From Craspedostauros australis (lineage: Eukaryota > Bacillariophyta > Bacillariophyceae > Mastogloiales > Achnanthaceae), in assembly GCA_026770025.1 (NCBI GenBank), contig JAMXDE010000014.1:868001-932000 (forward strand): a stretch of 64,000 bases of DNA, written 5' to 3'. The notes under the pieces were generated by a model, which saw nothing but the letters and a program-made list of their open reading frames with translations, was not told the origin of the DNA and made no database searches. Shown in pieces: positions 14,200 through 40,300 of the stretch; the first letter of the stretch is position 1, and every line of letters starts with the position of its first letter. The position numbers and the translations under genes were made by a program.

Positions 14200-16440
14200 A
14201 TGACGATCTTCAACATGCACAGCGATAGCGACAGTGACAGCGACAGCAGCAGCAGCGGTGGCGAGTCCGTCGATATCAGCTCCGTCGAGGACGATGATGA
14301 CAGCAGCGAAGCCGAGGAGGCCACCTCCGTCGCAAGCAGCACAGCCGGCGGCGGCGACGACAGCGGCAGTGATGAAGATGAAGGCGAAGAGCCGGAGGAT
14401 TCCGAGGTCAACGACGAACTGGCACCGCTCGCGGATGACATGGTGCAACGCGAGGTGTACTCCGACGAAGAGGAAGACGATGACGGCGGCGCGAACCAGA
14501 CCAACGGAGCGCGTGCTCGCGGAATGGACGGCGACGACGAGGAGGAGGACGACGAAGAAGGAAGCGCCCTGCTCCTTGCCAAGCAGGAGAAGTTCTACGA
14601 ACGCCTCAATCATTTCATGAACGTGCAGCGCAAGGTGGAGGAGCGCATGGAGCGCATCGACCCCAAGGGACGTCTCAAGGAGATCGAGGTCATCGACCAC
14701 TCCGGCGGACTCATCGAGGAGGACGGCACCTACAAGACCAAGTACCAGCAGCAGGATGCGGAGGGCGACATCGCACGCAACCTAGGAGAGGTCTACGAGG
14801 CCGCCTACCAGATCAAGCAGAGCCTGCGCGACTTGCTCGACAAGATCGTGGACAAGGTCAAGGGCATGGACTACGTCGACGCCAAGATCGTCGAGCTCAA
14901 GCCGCGCGACCGCGCCAACCAGAAGGCGCGCGAGGAGTACCTCACCAGATTGCCAGGCCCGCCGGAGACGTGGCTGTGGGACGTGCTGCGCTGCAGCATC
15001 ACCTGCAAGACCATTAAGCAGATGGAGAGCGTCAACAAGTTCCTCTCCAAGAAGGCGCACATCGTGCAGTCCAAAAACAGATTCGTCTCGCCTGCCTACA
15101 GCGGATACCGCGACCTGCTCTACCACGTCCTCATCGACTGGCAGTACAAGGAGAACGTCTTCTTCGTCGCCGAGATCCAGGTCCATCACAAGGAGGCCAA
15201 CAACATCGAGAAGATGCTGGGTACGCTCAACCACTACAAGTACTTCCGCTCCTGCTTCGCCGGGCCCAACCGCACCACCATCGAGACCATGAGGGACCTC
15301 GACATGCTCCTCAGGATGGGCAAGATCGACGATCTGACGATGGACAAAATTCTCAGCTTCGACAACCCCGACCAGCTCACGGTGTTCGGCAAGCTGTTCG
15401 ACCAGAAGCTGGACGACTACAACCGATCCCTGCAGATCTTCACCCGCGTCCTCACGCTGCAGGAGGAGTCCATCGGCGAGATGCATCCCGACACGGCGGC
15501 CACCTACCAGTCCGTTGGTCTGGTGCAGGCCAAGAAGGGGCTCTGCGACAACGCGCTGCGGAACCTGCAAAAGTGCCTGGAGATCCAGGAGGAGGTGTTC
15601 GGCGCCTACAGCCCGGAAGTCGCAATCACGCGCAGCCACTTGGGCAACACCATCCGAAAACGCGGCGAGGCCAACAACGATCTGCTGGAGCACCGTGGTG
15701 CTCTGCAGCAGTACCGCAAGGCTCTGGTGATCCGGGAACGCTGCCTGGGTGAGGACCATCTTGACGTCGCCGACTCCTACCAGCACATCGGCGAGTCGCT
15801 GTGCCAGCTGGGCGACTTCGAGGGTGCGCTCGCGGCCTACCGCGAGTCCCTGTCCATCCTGGAGTCGTTGCTGGGCGAGAACCACGCCGACGTCGCTGCA
15901 TCCCACAGCCTGCTCGGCGGAGTGCTGCACCAGCAGGGCGACTTCGAGGGCTCCATGGAGGAGTACGAAATGGCGCTGGCCATCCGCGAGGAAGTGTTTG
16001 GTAAGAGCCATCCCATGACCGCCGAATCTCACACGGAGATCGGCATCCTGCTGGGCGAGGTCGAGGACTACGAAGAGGCCGAGGCCCGACATCGCAAGGC
16101 GTTGCGCACCCGCGAGATCGTGTGCGGCAAGGAAAGCCCGGAAGTCGCCGCCTCCATGGCCAACGTTGGTTTCATTCTGAACCAGAAGAGCGACTATGAC
16201 GGCGCCTTGGCGATGCACCGAAATGCGTACGCCATCCGCGATAAGATTCTGGGCTCCCGAAACGCAGACACGCGCGCGTCGTTGCAGAGCATCCATCTGA
16301 ATGAGAATCGTCAGCGCGAAGGTCTGATGGACGAGGATGACGAAGAAGAAGAAGAGGAAGGCCACAGTGAAGAGGAATATGACGATGACGAGGAATACGC
16401 CGAAGGAGAAGAGAGCGGAAGCGAAGAAGAAGAGGATTAA
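14200..16440 (+). CDS. RelA/SpoT-like domain fused to kinesin-light-chain-type TPRs, copy 1
   Basis: 746 residues, intronless. Residues 1-125 are extremely acidic and Ser-rich. About 127-350 resembles a RelA/SpoT-type nucleotidyltransferase fold: helices, then YQQQD (182-186), WLWDVLRCSITCKTIKQM (D261 and R264 of a DxxR motif), SGYRDLLYHVLI (GYRD at 302-305, where (p)ppGpp synthetases have GYQSLH) and VAEIQVHHKEAN (like the synthetase EIQIRT strand). About seven 42-residue TPRs of kinesin-light-chain type follow (400-690; LGEDHLDVADSYQHIGESLC pattern), then an acidic tail. The TPRs should bind protein partners. Whether the first domain makes an alarmone or is catalytically dead cannot be told, since the synthetase Ser/His are replaced. 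Its paralogue lies next on the same strand. Confidence 0.7.
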   Translation: MTIFNMHSDSDSDSDSSSSGGESVDISSVEDDDDSSEAEEATSVASSTAGGGDDSGSDEDEGEEPEDSEVNDELAPLADDMVQREVYSDEEEDDDGGANQTNGARARGMDGDDEEEDDEEGSALLLAKQEKFYERLNHFMNVQRKVEERMERIDPKGRLKEIEVIDHSGGLIEEDGTYKTKYQQQDAEGDIARNLGEVYEAAYQIKQSLRDLLDKIVDKVKGMDYVDAKIVELKPRDRANQKAREEYLTRLPGPPETWLWDVLRCSITCKTIKQMESVNKFLSKKAHIVQSKNRFVSPAYSGYRDLLYHVLIDWQYKENVFFVAEIQVHHKEANNIEKMLGTLNHYKYFRSCFAGPNRTTIETMRDLDMLLRMGKIDDLTMDKILSFDNPDQLTVFGKLFDQKLDDYNRSLQIFTRVLTLQEESIGEMHPDTAATYQSVGLVQAKKGLCDNALRNLQKCLEIQEEVFGAYSPEVAITRSHLGNTIRKRGEANNDLLEHRGALQQYRKALVIRERCLGEDHLDVADSYQHIGESLCQLGDFEGALAAYRESLSILESLLGENHADVAASHSLLGGVLHQQGDFEGSMEEYEMALAIREEVFGKSHPMTAESHTEIGILLGEVEDYEEAEARHRKALRTREIVCGKESPEVAASMANVGFILNQKSDYDGALAMHRNAYAIRDKILGSRNADTRASLQSIHLNENRQREGLMDEDDEEEEEEGHSEEEYDDDEEYAEGEESGSEEEED

Positions 16441-17716
16441 GATTACCACCGCAACTCCAAGCAACTCCAATGCTCTACCTCCCTCTCCATGCCCCATTCA
16501 TTCACCACCACTTCCATCACCACCACCATCATGACATATATTATGTCGACACGGAAGGATAGTTGGGCAGTAACATGACTGGGTGGTTGGGTGGCGAGGG
16601 AATTCCATGTTAATGAACCGGATGCGATCCTCGCTATCGACGCACACCGAAGCAACCATCGGCTTGCACTGAAGGGAGCGCTGTGCATTAGTGTCGATAC
16701 TCTCCCAGCACTCTACCCGCAGCGTGCCATGCAGCAGGTAGACCATAATGCATGATAAACACACATCTGCATCCGAGTAGGGAGTGGAGTAGAGTATCAT
16801 TGCTGCTCCTACGAATGCCTCTCAACGCAGCGAAATGCAACGCCACCCAAACTACTAACCCGACCGAACAAGTTCAATTGTCAAGGAGTTCCTACTGCTG
16901 CTGTTGTTGCTGTTGTTGCTGCTTGTATCCATGATGACGATGATCGCGTTGATGTTGCAGTCATTTGCCGAAGAGGCGATGTTACAACCAATTTGTGACG
17001 AAAAGGGGTGCACTTTGGGGCATGAAATGGTGACCTTTGCGATGTCCGTGACTGGTGGGACACGGATCCTTTCCCTCCCACCGTCGCAGATGCTGTCATC
17101 GATGTCTCTTTGTTGGACATACCCGTAGATGACATACCGACGCGCCAACCAGCGTTTTCGCACGAACAGTGGCCAAAGCACCACTGTGGGCAGAAAGACA
17201 CAGCAAAGAAACCGCTGTCGTGGACACTTTGGGCGCGAAAACAGCGCTCCACTTGCTTCCGACAAACGCGTTGGTTGCACTCTTGTCTGTGAATGCACCC
17301 GAAGTGGAAGCAGAGGCATTCACATCTGGAGAGTTGTTCGGACGAGTAGTAGTACAAGCCACAAGGAAGAAGCACCACAATCAATCACCTCGGCATTGCC
17401 TCGACCATACCATTCGATCTTGTCTCCTTGGCAGCTTGACCAAAGCGCAGAGTGAAACGTGGACTTGCGCAACGCAAACGACCGCCTCCTGTCCAGCCTC
17501 CCCAGCTTCTCTATTCTTCTTGCCTGTCCACTTCTCAGCTGTCCCATCAACCCAATCCCGCAATCACTGGCGCCTCGCACTCGCAGCTCATACTTGTTGG
17601 TAGCTCGTACGCCAGAAGGGGGACATCAACCGCAGCATCAACAGTTGAAACAGAAGCAAGAGCATCGCAACAAAACCGAAGGAAAGGAGACACATCCACA
17701 CCAAGACGTTCGCACC
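16441..17716. promoter_or_regulatory. Intergenic region between the two RelA/SpoT-like-TPR genes
   Basis: 1.28 kb. It holds an imperfect CTG/TTG tract at about 16893-16925 and ORFs without domain character on both strands. Presumed terminator of copy 1 and promoter of copy 2. Confidence 0.4.
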
Positions 17717-20700
17717 ATGGGGAAGGCTCCAGACAGCATCATCGAGAAGGTGAGTAAAGCCAATCCTTTGGGGCCGAAGTGGAGTGGGCTGGACTTTCCG
17801 CACCTGTGCATCTTTGGTGATTGATGCTGGACTGCCATACGGTTACTACTGCCCATGTTGCCGCTACGGGCTGCCCATACTCTCATTCATGCTCACACAG
17901 TGCATCTCCACCTGCATCTATTCCTGCATCTACTCCTGCATCTCCACCCGCATCCACCAACTGACCCCAATCGATCTGTCGCAAAGGCCATCATACGATG
18001 CAAGAAGGCACAGCACATGACCAAGTCCTTCCAGGACAAGAAGAAGATCAAGACGGGGAAGGAGACCGACAAGCGCCTCACGGCCATGGTCAACACCATA
18101 CAGCGCAATGAGGACTACGGCGAGCTGGGTGGCGAGCTGCAGGTGCTCATGACGATGGTCAACAACATGAAGTACGCCATCCTCGAACCGCTGGCAGACT
18201 CCATCGAAACCATAGAGCGCCGCATGGTGGCGTACAAGAAGGCCATCGACGACAACATCAACAGCGTCAGCGATCTCGAGGCGGCGTCCACGGCCAACTT
18301 CTCAGCCTCGGTGGCCAACCTCAACTTCGCCATGACCCACGATGAGGAGGCCGAAGAGGACCACGCGTCGCTTGGGAAGAAGAACAAGGACAGGCCCGGC
18401 AGCAAGCGCCAGGCATCCTTCAGCGGCCTCGCCAACGGCAGCAACCACGACAGGAAGACGCCCACCACGAGCCCAAGGCCAGCAAACACGCGCCGCAACT
18501 CGTCCGCCAACCTCGCCGGAGGCAGCAGCCACGACAGGAAGTCAGCCGTCCCACCTCCGAAGATCCTCAGTCCCAAGGCCAAGGCTGGCAAGCGCTCCAG
18601 CAAGACGAACGGGGGCGGTTCGGCCAATGGAAATGGGCAAGCGAATGGAGACAACACCTCTCTCAACGGCGGAAGCAACCACAAACGATCGTCGCGGATG
18701 TCGTCGCAGTATAAACGTCTGTCACAACGCAACATATCCGCCTTCCAGGAGCTCGAGCTGGATGATAACGACGATGATGCGTTCGATGTGGACATTCTCA
18801 CGCCCTTCGAGAACATCAACCCAGAATCCTCCGCCGTCACCGCCAAGCAGCAAAAGTTCTTCGCTCGTCTCGGCCAATTCTTTGAGAACATTGTTTCTGG
18901 TGACGAACGCAACATCGTCGTGGATCCGCACTGCAAGCTTGCCAACATGAAGGTCAAATCACACACCAAGGGCTTGCTGGAACGAGACGGCGTCACTCAC
19001 AAACAGGCCTACCAGCAGCAGGATCTTCGTGGCAGGCGCGTCAAGACCCTCTCGGACCTCTACGGCGCGGCCGAACAGGCGGAATCCTCATTCAAAACGC
19101 TCATCACGCAGCTTGTCGACAGCGTCAACGGTCTCTCCGCGCAGGACATCATCTTCTCACCCATCAAACGACGTGTGCGCGCCTCAGAGAAGGCGCAGGA
19201 GCAGTTCGCATTTCGCAACCCGGGCCCCGGCGAATCATGGATCTTCGACGTCGTGCGTGCCGGCATCGTCTGCAAAACGATCAAGCAGATGTCGGACGTC
19301 AACAAGTGGTTCCGCGAGAACATCCACATCGTGGACTGCAACAACCGATTCGCCATTCCCAGATTTGACGGCTACCGTGACATCATCTACCACATATCCG
19401 TGCCTTACAAGGATGAGCTTGCGCACACCTGCGAGGTCCAGGTCCACCACCGCGACTTCAAGCTGCATTTCGGCATCAGCAGCAACATGCCATTCTTCCG
19501 TCCCTACTTTGCAGAATCCACGGGCAGGAACCAGGAGAACGTGCTCGGCGATCTTGACATCCTCCACAAGGTCGGCAGGATTGACGATGAATTCATGGAG
19601 TTCCTCATGAACGCGGAGGATCCGGACCAAGTCAAGCTCTTCGGTCGTCTCTTCTTCGAGCATCTTGGCGAAACGGAGAGATCGTTGGAATTGTTCAAGC
19701 GAGTTCTCGTCATGGAGGAAACGACGATCGGGAAGGATCATGTCAAGACGGCGGCCACCTACATCCTCATTGGAATGGTGCTGCTGAAGCAAACGGACAC
19801 GGACGGATCGTTGCTCTACCTGCGGGAAGGATTTGACATTTACAAGCAGAAGTTGGGAGATTCGCATCCGCAGGTCGCCGCGGTCCATGCTTCCATGGGC
19901 ACGGTGTACATAGAAAAGGGGCACTACAACACGGCGCTCAAGGAGCATCAGATGGCATTGCAAATTAGAGAACGTCTGCTAGGCGAGGACCATCTGCTGG
20001 TGGCCGAGTCGTACAGCTGCGTGGGACATTGCTTGGCTCACAAGGGAGAAACGAAGCGCGCGTTGGATGAGTACCAGACGGCCTTGCTGGTGCAGCAATC
20101 GGTGCTGGGTGAGAAGCATGAAGACGTGGCGCCGACCCACGCCAGTATCGGACGCATGCATCTTGAGCAGGGCGATCTCGGCCAGGCCAAGGAATCCTTT
20201 CAAACGGCGTTATCCATTCGGGAATCCGCGTTGGGAAAGACGCACCCGTCCGTCGCAGAATCCATGACGTGTTTGGGTGATTTGGAATATCGTCAGGAGC
20301 ACTACATCAAGGCAGAACAGTACTACCGCAAAGCGTTGCAAATTCGAGAGAATGTGCAGGGCACCACGGACCATCCTGACTGCGCGGCGTCGATGATCCA
20401 GATGGGAAAATCCAAATGCAAGTCGTCCTCCAAGGATGGCATCGAGACCATCCGCAAGGCCATCACGATCCTCATCAATGAGCTGGGCAAAACCAATGTC
20501 ACTGTGGCGGATGCGTTTGAACAATTGGGCCATGCCTACGAAGACACTCACAACTACGGTGCAGCGTTGCAATGCTACAAGCACGTTCTCACCATTCGCA
20601 AGAGCATCCATGGAAAGAACCATCCATCCACTGCCGTCGCCATGAATTGCATTGCCACCATCAAATTGAAGACCAAAAAGGCCGCCGATATTCCGTTGGG

Positions 20701-21331
20701 CGAGTACGAGAAATCGATGAGCATCCTGGTCCGCATCGTTACCGAGAATCATCCGCTTGTCGCCGACACCTACCAATGCATCGGCGACGTCTACATCGTC
20801 AAATGCAATCAGGGGTTGGCATTGGAAAATTTCAGCAAGGCGTTGAGCATCCGCAACAGCCTGCTGGGCAAGTATCATCCCAAGACGGCGGAGTCGTGCA
20901 ATCAGATAGCGGAGCTCCTGTTGCGCAAGAATGACATCCCCGGAGCCAAAATGGCCTACCGACAGGCGCTGGCCGCCGCTGTTCATCTGTACGGAGAGCA
21001 GCATTTGCAAACCGCGACCGCGCGTCTCAACATGGGCCGATTGTACAATGAAGATCACGAATTTGACGATGCGCAGAATGAGTTCGAGCGCGCCGTCACC
21101 ATCCGCAAGGCGATGTTGGGGACGGAAGATCTTGGCACAGCCGAGGCGCATTACTGGCTGGGTTCCGTGCACAATCGACAAGGCTCCTTCGAGGATGCCA
21201 TGCGACATCACAAGATTGCCCTCAGGATCCGGCAGGAGCATCTGGAACCGAATCACGCCGATATCAAGGCATCCAAAGCAGGTATCAAAGCGACGGAGAG
21301 CCAAAAGTACGAGGATGAAATTGCATTGTAG
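17717..21331 (+). CDS. RelA/SpoT-like domain fused to kinesin-light-chain-type TPRs, copy 2 (1 intron)
   Basis: About 1125 residues. A tiny first exon, 17717-17749 (MGKAPDSIIEK), joins 17987-21331 through a 237-bp GT-AG intron, phase 0. The large frame is open upstream to 17855 but that translation is Leu/His repeats from the intron. Residues 12-130 are basic then helical, 150-290 Ser/Asn/Lys-rich and disordered. The RelA/SpoT-like region is about 298-515, with the same landmarks as copy 1: YQQQD, IFDVVRAGIVCKTIKQMSDVNKW, DGYRDIIYH (GYRD at 473-476) and CEVQVHHRDFK. Some thirteen TPRs follow (about 560-1110; LGEKHEDVAPTHASIGRMHL type). It lacks the acidic ends of copy 1 and has nearly twice the TPRs. 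Head-to-tail arrangement and shared motifs indicate tandem duplication followed by divergence. Confidence 0.72.
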
Positions 21332-35050: not shown

Positions 35051-36267
35051 ATGAGATCCATCATCGCTACGGGCGTGGCCCTGCTGGCCATGCTGCAAAG
35101 CACTGCGGCCGACGGCGCTGTCGAGCTGACCGAGAGCAACTTCAAGGCCTCCGTTGGTGGCAAGAACTCCTTCGTGAAGTTCCTTGCTCCTTGGTGAGGC
35201 CACTGCAAGGTGTGTATTGCCACTGGTATCGGTGTTGGTACAGTACGACCTAGTGGAGTACAGGAAGTCTGTCCATTCGATCCTTGGGTCATCCGAAGCT
35301 CTGGCATCTGCACCCACGTTGAGTTGTCGAGGCATTGAGACGTTGGGACGTCGAGGGTTTCAATGTTTGCGCACTTCGCGCATGTGTTGTCACCGTTGCC
35401 GCTTTCGTCCTCTCACTGAACATCACGTGGCTTTCTCTCCTGCTGTCTTTTCATTGCTCACTTTTCCGTGGCCTCAAACTATTGTTTGCTCTGTCCCACA
35501 TACCACACACCACACGATACCCACCATTGCAGTCCATGAAGCCAGCATGGGACCAACTTGGTGACGAATTCGCAGCTTCGTCATCAGTTGTCATCGGCGA
35601 CGTGGATTGCACATCCGAACCTGCAAAGGCATTGTGCGACAACTTTGAAATCCGCGGATGTAAGTGTCGAATCAGTTTGTGGAATGAATACACGAAGGCA
35701 GAGCATGGGAGCTTCGCGTTGATGCATGTTGCCACAAGCCTTTGCTCTGGCTTCCAACAGCCTGTGATAAAGTACAGACAGCTTCATCTCACTTGGTTTG
35801 CGACATCTATCATTCTTACTCATTCAATCGCTTCTCTTGTTTCTACGCACAAACATGACACTCTGCGACTACTTTTTCCATTATTTTGTGCTCTGTTTTG
35901 CCAAACATACCGTCCTTCCTCCATTCTTACATTTTGTTGCATGGGCATTGCAGACCCAACCATCAAGTACTTCGCTGATGGTGACGAGAAGGGTCAGGAT
36001 TACAACGGAGGACGTGACTTCGACAGCCTCAAGAAGTTCGTCGAGGACGAGCTCGTGGTCAATTGCGACATCGAGAACCCAGCCGAGTGCTCGGAGAAGG
36101 AAAAGAAGTACATCGAGAAGATGAAGGGCAAGCCATCGGAAGAGCGCATCAAGCAGTTGAAGCGATTGGACGGAATGAAGGCCAACTCCATGAAGGCCGA
36201 GCTGAAGGCCTGGATCTCGCAGCGCATGCACATCCTGCGATCCCTCGAACCACACGCTGAGCTTTAG
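35051..36267 (+). CDS. Selenocysteine-containing protein disulfide isomerase (in-frame TGA at active site)
   Basis: ER thiol oxidoreductase. Exons 35051-35209, 35533-35659 and 35954-36267 (introns gtgtgt...cag and gtaagt...cag) give 199 residues. Exon 1 reads a signal peptide (MRSIIATGVALLAMLQSTAA), then FVKFLAPW, TGA at 35195-35197, then GHCK. Every PDI has Cys at the TGA position (APWCGHCK), so this reads as U49-G-H-C52. After the first junction, SMKPAWDQLGDEF follows as in PDIs. After the second, FEIRGYPTIKYFADG contains the cis-Pro loop. One thioredoxin domain is followed by a helical segment (about 150-195) and the C-terminal HAEL, a KDEL-like retention signal. A Sec-PDI is known from the haptophyte Emiliania huxleyi. 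I could not identify a SECIS by eye downstream. The alternative is a nonsense allele. Confidence 0.85.
35195..35197 (+). other. Proposed selenocysteine codon (TGA) of the PDI active site
   Basis: In-frame TGA, codon 49, replacing the first Cys of the CGHC active site and lying 12 nt before the exon 1 splice donor. All downstream coding and splice signals are intact. Confidence 0.8.
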
Positions 36268-37325
36268 AGAGGTTGCACCACCCGTGTTGCAACGAGCGTT
36301 GGCACATCGCACAACAATGAAATGACCAGCAGAATGGACACTTGCATGGGCATGTCCCAAGCGAACAGTCACATGTCACACAGAAATCAGCGACACCAAT
36401 GCACATGCTGATAGAGCATGCCATGATGGCGCAGCACTCGAGCCAAGCCGTGCGATGTTCCGTATCATACGTTCATTCTGCTCCACGATATCGAACCGTC
36501 CATCACCCAACAACCAACCAACAGAGACACTTCAAAGGCAATCGCTGCGTTTTCAGAATTGAATGATTCGCCGAACGAACCGAATGACGGTGTGAATGGA
36601 GACGACCAGACATGAATCCACGTTGATTCTTTTGGGATGATCCACCACGCCTGACAGTGCTCGTATGGAGGACATCCGTTGGATGGGGTTGGCTTGTCGG
36701 ACGACGATGGCGTTGAGTACACGAGAATGAGAATGGGACAAGCGCCAACCCAAGTGGAGTATAGTGCAGTATTGATAGATTATACTGTTGCACAGCTCTA
36801 CTTCTCATGACCAATGCTCCAGCAGAGTACAGCAACTCCGGAGACAGTGTATTTCTTGTTCGATCAGCGTGTGGTCGATCAGGGTATTTGGTTGTTTCGA
36901 AATGTCACCACCAGTCATTCTAGTTTCCTTCCGTAGCATCCAGATCGTACGTCGACCGTTGATACCAGTCTAAATTCTCATCTCCACAACACACGCACAC
37001 CAATGTGTGCGGTGCCCATCATTGATTGAATGATGTCCCCTCACCACGCGCCAACATCACCCATCACTTTTTTCTGCACAACCCGTTCTTTCTCGCAATT
37101 CTGCGCTGGTCAGGATCCAAGGCTCGTGAAGTTGTTGGCATTGACCAGCCCTGATGAGGAGGCATCTTGTCACTCAAGAGTAAAATAGCATCCCATACTC
37201 GTGTGAGATAAGACTGTTGTTGGTGTTGCAGGCACATTGCAGGCAACGGAACGATTGATCGGCTGATGAGCCAACGAAGCGTCCAGCCACCCAGCAGCGC
37301 ACGTGCGACGCCCCACAAACACAGC
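36268..37325. other. Sec-PDI 3' region and helicase upstream region
   Basis: 1.06 kb between co-directional genes. If the PDI is a selenoprotein its SECIS should be in the first part. I checked each ATGA in 36268-37000 for a following stem, AA loop and opposing GA and found no convincing core. The rest would hold the helicase promoter. Confidence 0.4.
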
Positions 37326-40300
37326 ATGGCAAGGATGGGGTTTTCATGCGCTCTACTGACCGTCCTGTGGTCAACCAACACCCTCTTTGCGAAAGGATTT
37401 GCGATCCATGGCACAAAAGCAGAGTCGCATCTCCATCAGGATCGTCCCCATCAACGCAATGGGCAGACTCCGCATCCCATCATGCATCGTCAACCCCGGC
37501 ATCAGTCAATTCTCCAAAGGAATGTCCAGTCGCAATCAGCAGACCCCTCGCAAGATGCTGCAGTGGAAGACGCTGACAACGACAACTATCACGGCAGCGA
37601 AGACAGTGGTGAAGGCAACGACTACGCGATGGATAGAAGCACCATACAGTTGGGAAAGGATGAGCTTGCGGACAAGTTCGACTTCCCTCTCGATGACTGG
37701 CAGTTGCTGGCGGGTGGCGAGATCCTCAAGGGTCACAACGTGGTGGTGTGCGCTCCGACGGGAAGCGGCAAAACAGTGGTCGGCGAGATGGCCTTGCACA
37801 CCGCCTACAACGAAGGCCTGGAAGGCATTTACACCACGCCGCTCAAAGCTTTGTCGAATCAAAAGTACTCCGAGCTGCGACAAGTCTTTGGTTCGCAGCA
37901 TGTCGGGCTGTCGACTGGTGACACTTCCATCAATCGGCGTAATGCTCGTGTCACCGTCATGACGACGGAGGTGTACCGCAACATCGCGTGGCGGGCAAGC
38001 GGACGATCCTCCGATGAGAACCGGACAGCGGTGGTGCAAGAAGTCGACTCCATCTATCCCGTCAACGATCTCAATGACAATGCCGTCGTGGTGCTGGATG
38101 AGTTCCATTACATGGGTCAGCCTGGTCGTGGCGGTGTGTGGGAGGAGTGCATCATCACATCTCCCAAGCACACGCAGATCGTCGGTCTTTCAGCGACCCT
38201 ACCCAACGCCGCGCAACTCGCGGAATGGATCGAAGGCGTCACGGGACGCAAGACGGTTCTGATCGAAGCCCCAGGAGCCCGACCGGTGCCGCTGAGGTAC
38301 ACGTACGCCACACGAGAGGGTCTGTTCCCGCTGTTTCGCAATCCAGATGCGGGACCAGGCGCCCCTCTGGGCCTGCTGGGGTACAGAGGTGACGGTGTGC
38401 CACCCACGTCGACCGAGGCCAAGAAGCCCAAGCGACGACGAGGCAAGGGCAACTTCGTGTCGGAATACGACGAGATGATCGCGCTGGATGAGTCCGATGA
38501 CAAGATTCCAAGAGGGCTGCAGGTGAATCCTGCCCTCCGAGCTGCGGCGCAACGGCGCATGCAACGGGTCAACCGGTCGTTGGAACAGCAACGCCAACGG
38601 CAAAGGAAGCCATGGGAGGATGAATCGAGCGACCGCTTGTACAAGGTCGACAAACGTCGCAAAATGTCGCCGCGGGAGGAACGCAGAGAACGAGAGCGAC
38701 TGCTGAAACGGGAGATGAGAAAGGCGGTGCCATCCATGCCGGTGCTTTTGACCCGGATGAAACAGAAGAAGCTCCTTCCAGCCATCGTCTTCATCTTCTC
38801 TCGCGCTGGGTGCAACCAAGCGGCGGAGACCATCGTGAACTACTCCGAAGGTCCTCGCGATCCGACGCGGGACGTCCTGTTCGGTGACGAGACGGATGGC
38901 TCTTCGGGCCGGCCGCAACGAAAGAAATCTCGCCCCACGAGACAACGTGGTCGCCACCAGCCAGAAGCTACCGATGATGTGTTCCGCGATCAGAACGGAC
39001 GGACATTCCGCCCGGGAAGTGATCAGCTCAGCGATGACGTGATCAAGGCCATGATGGATGGCGATGGTGCAGAAATGGAAGAGTACGACGATACCTCCGT
39101 TCTGGCGCAGCACAACTGGGATTTCTACGCCTCTGCCGGATTCCTGGAGTACCATGAAGTGGAGTCTGTGGCATCCAGGATCACCCAATTCAACGAAGAT
39201 AACCCGGAGATCTCTTTCGACGACAGCGCCAGCAAGCAGTTCATGTTCGGCGTCGGGTCACACCACGCAGGTATGCTGCCGGCGCACAAGGCGTTCGTCG
39301 AGACCGTGTACCGTGCGGGCTTGATGAAGGCCGTTTTCGCGACAGAAACACTGGCTGCAGGCATCAACATGCCGGCCCGGTCCACCGTGATCTGCGCGTT
39401 GGCCAAGCGTGGCGACAGCAGCGCCATGAACTTGCTGGAGACAGCCAATCTACTTCAAATGTCAGGGCGTGCTGGTCGGCGTGGCATGGACACCGACGGA
39501 ACGTGCGTCATCGTCGCAACGCCCTTCGAGAGTCATGAAGACGCGGCGCTGATTCTGACGAATCCGATCAAACCTGTGGTATCTCAATTCCGGCCATCGT
39601 ACTCCCTCACCGTCAACCTCGTGAGGAGAGGTCGCGGCAAGCTGGATGTCGCTAAGAACCTGGTGCGGAACTCCTTCGCGATGTGGGAGAAGCGGCAGCT
39701 CGAGCTGTCCATCTCATCGGCCAACCAGCACGAAGGCGTCGAAGAGATCCTGGAATCATCGTCACATGAGAAGTTCATGGGACTGCTTGTGGACACACTG
39801 CAGCGGCTCATCGATCGCAAGAATCCAAACTACGACATCGGCAAGTTGAAGTCCATGGTATCCGTTCTGAAGGACCGGGATCTTCTCAAATCCTGCTCTA
39901 AGCAGTTCATCGGGAAGAGCCGGTCGTTCGAATTGGAAACCACGACGTTGAGCTACCTGCAATCCGAACTCTCCGATCTGGAGCAGAATCAGCCACCGGC
40001 CGTGTTTGAGGGCGAGGGGGGCGACTCCGTCATGGAACTGTTCGAAGGTGACCGTGCTGCGATGCTGGAGCAAATTGAGAATCAGGAGGAGCGCGTCAAG
40101 TCCGCCGCCAAGGAAATCAAGAGGCACCCATACAACCGCGTGGCCATTGTCGCCAATGAGCTCATGGAAGGCGATTCGGAGGATGGAAGAAATTTGCTCG
40201 CGGCACTCAGAAAGCTGCGAAAGTCATCCGATGATGACGTGCAAATGCTGTCACCGCGGGATCTGTCGACGTTCGCCAAATCCACCATCGTCATCCGTCG

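Follow-up and report, generated by a model that had tools for sequence, protein, structure and literature searches.

The window, the whole 64-kb stretch of DNA analysed here, corresponds to C12:868001-932000 within a 74.8-Mb assembly of 90 contigs. Contig C90 of this assembly codes for a cytochrome b6/petB-type protein (PF00033); the gene is read as plastid DNA, and the source organism is thus taken to be photosynthetic. Two large adjacent ORFs rich in TPR repeats (746 and 1,158 aa) lie on the plus strand of the window at 14200-21331. A gene for a protein disulfide isomerase (PDI) follows at 35051-36267, also on the plus strand, and its three exons splice into a 600-nt frame of 199 residues (MRSIIATG...HAEL). 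The features of this gene are:

35051-35209, plus strand: exon 1, with the start codon, a signal-like N-terminal stretch (by eye), the first part of the thioredoxin domain and APW-TGA-GHCK
35195-35197, plus strand: the in-frame TGA (codon 49), which takes the place of the nucleophilic Cys, the first of the CxxC site, and is probably read as selenocysteine (Sec)
35210-35532, plus strand: intron 1 (GTGTGT...TTGCAG), phase 0; the Cys paralogue at C16:873 kb is interrupted at the matching point
35533-35659, plus strand: exon 2 (SMKPAWDQ...FEIRG)
35660-35953, plus strand: intron 2 (GTAAGT...TTGCAG)
35954-36267, plus strand: exon 3 (YPTIKYF...), with a charged, helical-looking tail, the C-terminus HAEL and the stop codon TAG at 36265-36267

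The TGA at codon 49 is the sole internal stop of this frame, and both introns are bounded by GT-AG. Its context is FVKFLAPW-TGA-GHCK, where it aligns to the leading Cys of APW[C]GHCK; its end lies 12 nt upstream of the first splice junction and 139 nt upstream of the second. Gene structure and TGA position are thus seen directly in the DNA, and they bear out an earlier note on this locus, which had placed the TGA exactly at the reactive N-terminal Cys, 12 nt upstream of a splice junction, in a gene without other defects whose two clean introns and following exons rebuild a thioredoxin domain, a helical tail and a HAEL end. Codon 49 of this PDI is the one place in the 74.8-Mb genome where the DNA pattern for W-TGA-GHCK is found, and the reversed control pattern has no match in it.

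With Cys written at codon 49, the protein matches the Thioredoxin family PF00085 at 84 bits (cut-off 23.5). Its PDB matches are PDI-type thioredoxin domains, the best being Thioredoxin domain-containing protein 5 (E = 3.6e-78). The architecture is simple: a single thioredoxin domain plus a C-terminal tail. The N-terminus is signal-peptide-like by eye only, and the protein finishes with HAEL; the endings SDEL, GDEL, KDEL, TDEL and AKEL occur among related reading frames of the genome. An FKBP protein at C11:607872 (L078) has a tail with 38 percent likeness to the exon 3 tail. At this second locus (L078:1000-1731, G000:C11), an FKBP-type peptidyl-prolyl isomerase is fused to an ERp29-like tail with the end DAKEL. 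The ERp29 C-terminal domain model (PF07749) has no match in exon 3 of the window PDI, and the FKBP tail itself scores 19.8 bits against it, below the 24.3 cut-off. The likeness between the two tails agrees with an ER oxidoreductase, and the window PDI is probably located in the ER.

Among the full-length paralogues assembled, the closest is a Cys-PDI at G000:C16:872930-874000, with 81 of 190 aligned residues identical. Like the window PDI, it has one thioredoxin domain, a helical-looking tail and a probable ER-type end (SDEL), and both genes carry a phase-0 intron after GHCK. The paralogue has CGHC where the window PDI has UGHC. Its intron 1 is of the GC-AG type (AAG/GCAAGT; L051, reverse strand, ~1115-1145), in contrast to GT-AG in the window gene, and its 3' flank has no GAATGAC in 1,065 nt, unlike that of the window PDI. 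Another PDI paralogue, on the minus strand at G000:C16:1082521-1082913 (L075), has a Ser-x-x-Cys site (TSWSKPCK) in place of CGHC and ends in GDEL.

The genome holds most of the machinery for decoding UGA as Sec: tRNA-Sec, SepSecS, SPS2 and eEFSec, the components covered by the search, are all present. At 76.6 bits the tRNA-Sec lies above its gathering score of 47, and ARAGORN labels it tRNA-SeC (anticodon TCA). SepSecS is found as two pieces (239.6 and 105.7 bits), and SPS2 (211.9 bits) has one in-frame TGA immediately 5' of ACKIPQDEL. The eEFSec gene at C2:164 kb (L086) has eEFSec structures as its best matches (E = 4.2e-97) and carries the eukaryotic third domain PF21208 (44.3 bits, cut-off 27). 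The earlier note had proposed a genome search for tRNA-Sec and eEFSec, among others, and both of these are present. A candidate eEFSec at C4:2459 kb (L085) was dropped; it reads as what we take to be mitochondrial EF-Tu.

Other genes with TGA at Sec positions are also present, and the codon was checked individually in each SelT, GPx, SelM, SelU, SPS2 and PDI-like gene. SelT has CIS-TGA-G; two GPx genes have TGA at the Sec position; two SelM genes have CRG/CGG-TGA; and two SelU-type genes have RRPG-TGA-xLCR. A PDI-like pair with G-TGA-GYC lies at C6:906548-906835 (minus strand, PDIx1) and C6:1872832-1873119 (plus strand, PDIx2), the two copies being 93.9 percent identical across 2,280 nt (L049, L050). 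PDIx2 carries an extra upstream TAG besides the TGA and is without GAATGAC, and therefore has the look of a duplicated selenoprotein gene in decay. C/D-box snoRNA-like matches occur near the PDI-like genes at L049:1013-1098 and L050:3280-3357 (SNORD24, 50.2 bits, above the cut-off; SNORD53_SNORD92, 32.2 bits, below it).

SECIS elements are defined by an AUGA...GA core, an upper stem and unpaired AA, according to the available portions of two sources (PMC2375036, PMC11227280), and AUGA, the known SECIS core (PMC11227280, in its available part), is contained in GAAUGAC. This 7-mer was first spotted by eye in the flanks of other genes, then tested, and then all 7-mers were counted; the count is exhaustive, yet it was made after GAATGAC had been noticed. 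Among eight TGA genes, no 7-mer other than GAATGAC recurs in every 3' flank, and the runner-up reaches six. It is likewise the sole 7-mer common to all flanks of an extended set of ten, which SelU1 and SelU2 joined after GAATGAC had been seen near both. Across all TGA genes, window PDI included, it occurs in 10 of 11 3' flanks, the exception being PDIx2, which nearly duplicates PDIx1 but carries an extra TAG. PDIx2 was excluded from the shuffle set. Dinucleotide shuffles of the ten flanks gave a 7-mer common to all ten in 0 of 400 cases, with a maximum of eight flanks, reached once. The common core is an observed property of these flanks.

The control genes comprised paralogues with Cys or Ser, further thioredoxin-like genes and the gene with the FKBP tail, with SepSecS and Cys-GPx omitted and flank lengths of 246 to 1,065 nt. 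Ten of these control flanks begin at the next in-frame stop past CxxC, which may differ from the real gene end where introns are present. GAATGAC occurs in the flank of one of 17 distinct control genes (1/18 rows, L017 being the same as L072). This one is the Ser-type paralogue L075 (+683), and no closing hairpin is found there. Counted from the stop codon's first base, the 7-mer lies at 98 to 477 nt in the other TGA genes, and a second SelM2 copy lies at 822 nt.

A strong hairpin (-20 kcal/mol or lower) stands at GAATGAC in five of the nine other TGA genes (SPS2, SelT, GPxB, SelM2b and SelU1). The remaining four have none of this strength: GPxA has no hairpin, SelM1 reaches -6.3, PDIx1 -5.0, and the SelU2 site, scored only in the background list, falls outside that list's ten best. 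The background list holds 40 other GAATGAC sites, four of which reach -20 kcal/mol. Two of these are on the sense strand 3' of SelU-family matches (L056, which is SelU1, and L060, where no TGA was seen); the others are on the opposite strand of the GPxB locus and on the minus strand of the unrelated L020. The SPS2 element is textbook-like: GAATGAC leads into a stem of 9 bp, which is followed by an ACC bulge, a long ministem and CGA, and the lower helix has 12 pairs.

The 3' flank of the window PDI holds the following candidate:

36582-36655, plus strand: SECIS-like element, with GAATGAC at 36582-36588, a 63-nt hairpin at 36589-36651 and the closing TGAC at 36652-36655

Its GAATGAC starts 317 nt past the stop codon's first base, and the GAATGAC...TGAC hairpin folds at -21.6 kcal/mol. 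The 64-kb window has 12 GAATGAC sites, and only the one at 36582 closes at -20 or lower. The hairpin core is more stable than most shuffles (z -2.34; 3 of 200 equally stable); once its flanks are included, the fold does not stand out from shuffles (z -1.00; 31 of 200). The upper stem comprises 6 bp, AA opposite C, and 4 bp, and the lower helix is poor. The AA sits 7 nt past AUGA, off the canonical position, compared with 9 nt in SPS2, and SPS2 and SelT both have more regular hairpins.

Standard searches are negative. Rfam, at E up to 10, gives no SECIS match in the PDI 3' flank; genome-wide, SECIS_1 has no match among the 133 of 967 candidates scored; and on seven loci Rfam finds no SECIS, the clear SPS2 element being missed likewise, so the Rfam negative carries little weight. 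A strict canonical scan (home-made) of 36268-37700 finds no SECIS, while a relaxed scan gives several competing hairpins within the flank. A MAFFT alignment of five SECIS-like elements misaligned the GPx element, and no covariance model was built from it. For the 3' UTR SECIS on which the earlier note made its reading depend, the GAATGAC...TGAC hairpin at 36582-36655 speaks in favour; the negatives of Rfam and the strict scan and the placement of the AA speak against. The element is a probable SECIS, not of textbook form.

Taken as a whole, the gene very probably encodes a single-domain, likely ER-resident Sec-PDI with a C-terminal tail and a U-G-H-C site, in which UGA codon 49 is read as Sec through a 3' UTR SECIS. 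This reading, which the earlier note preferred to a pseudogene, is the most likely one because of the Sec machinery, the other TGA selenoprotein genes, the common GAATGAC hairpin core and the Cys paralogue, whose intron stands at the matching place. What we infer from these features is that Sec is inserted at codon 49, that the protein resides in the ER and that it is active as an enzyme. The hairpin at 36582-36655 would direct recoding of the UGA, tRNA-Sec and eEFSec would decode codon 49 as Sec, and the catalytic site would then be U-G-H-C. By general chemistry, the pKa of such a site would be lower, and its thiol-disulfide exchange faster, than with Cys.

There is a small chance that the locus is instead a Cys-PDI recently turned pseudogene by a Cys-to-TGA mutation, or an error in the assembled sequence, with a coincidental GAATGAC hairpin. 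A single substitution (TGY to TGA) is enough for this, yet the Cys version of the gene has 82 single-base routes to a stop, of which TGA at codon 49 is one and TGA at any Cys six, and the 199 codons show no further in-frame stop and are joined across GT-AG introns. The window hairpin is imperfect, and GAATGAC is expected by chance 0.1 times in a flank of this kind; against coincidence, the core is the one common to other selenoprotein genes, it stands with a closing hairpin on the correct strand, and the genome does decode Sec. PDIx2, with its TAG and TGA, provides an example of a decayed-looking PDI-like copy in the same genome, but one without GAATGAC. It is scarcely credible that alternative splicing or initiation at an internal start bypasses the TGA and yields a PDI lacking the active-site residue: the TGA does lie inside a donor-like TTG/GTGAGG (GTGAGG at 35194-35199 resembles a 5' splice donor) and the frame of exons 2-3 is open through intron 2 into intron 1 (ORF 35335-36267), but splicing from that donor to the same acceptor changes the reading frame, which then runs into a stop two residues past FLAP (FLAPCP-stop), translated intron 2 would break the conserved RGYPTIKYF, and the Cys paralogue splices at the same downstream intron-1 position.

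If the Sec-PDI reading is true, a TGA that breaks the annotation is functional coding sequence, and one probable ER oxidoreductase depends on selenium. The earlier note had further suggested a selenium switch through nonsense-mediated decay (NMD). The usual NMD rule calls for a junction about 50 nt downstream of the stop; the first junction, at 12 nt, is too near by this rule, so an EJC-type effect would rest on the second, at 139 nt. The switch is possible for the window PDI, and hypothetical.

The common GAATGAC core also offers a practical handle for finding the remaining selenoproteins of the genome, since the Rfam SECIS model gave no match in it. By eye, GAATGAC is followed by stems of ~22-32 nt at L064:1639, L049 (reverse strand) 1745 and L057:2138, and two of these three sites are flanked by a complementary lower helix (GAAAGT/ACTTTC and CGTTTT/AAAACG). 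They are possible miniature SECIS elements, which the hairpin scan scored weakly or not at all. A tentative broader proposal, with somewhat less than an even chance of holding, is that the SECIS of this lineage has drifted to a fixed GAAUGAC core with a relaxed upper part and an apical AA displaced or absent in several genes, and that in SelU2, in one SelM2 copy and in the PDI-like C6 gene the element may be such a miniature hairpin of ~22-32 nt, judged by eye; standard models would miss them, and selenoproteins like the window PDI would thus be overlooked or called pseudogenes. A precedent for lineage-specific conserved letters adjoining the SECIS core is UGUA in Dictyostelium, as given in the available part of PMC2375036. 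A fixed GAATGAC core across selenoprotein genes was not met in the available portions of the algal selenoprotein literature, the 7-mer itself not having been a query.

The window PDI resembles several known algal proteins. A selenoprotein PDI of Emiliania huxleyi was reportedly described by Obata and Shiraiwa in 2005; it is a Sec-bearing PDI homologue like the window gene, from a different lineage, the likeness being one of kind. The same E. huxleyi selenoprotein PDI is named as a query in the available part of PMC2375036. The earlier note had named E. huxleyi as the known case of a Sec-PDI, which overstated the novelty: as far as the available part of that source shows, two Sec-PDI homologues were already recorded in the diatom Thalassiosira pseudonana, and two Ostreococcus species had three apiece (Lobanov et al. 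2007, PMC2375036). These PDIs, too, are counted there as selenoproteins of marine algae, and they are like the window PDI by description. 'The algal selenoproteomes' distinguishes, in its available portion, subfamilies PDI_a to PDI_e and places PDI_a among the most widely distributed algal Sec proteins (PMC7539508). As described there, PDI_a to PDI_d have a single Sec, as the window PDI does, whereas PDI_e has a GUGUU motif that the window PDI lacks (PMC7539508). The Sec-PDI class is already known from algae, diatoms included, and the window gene adds a member to it.
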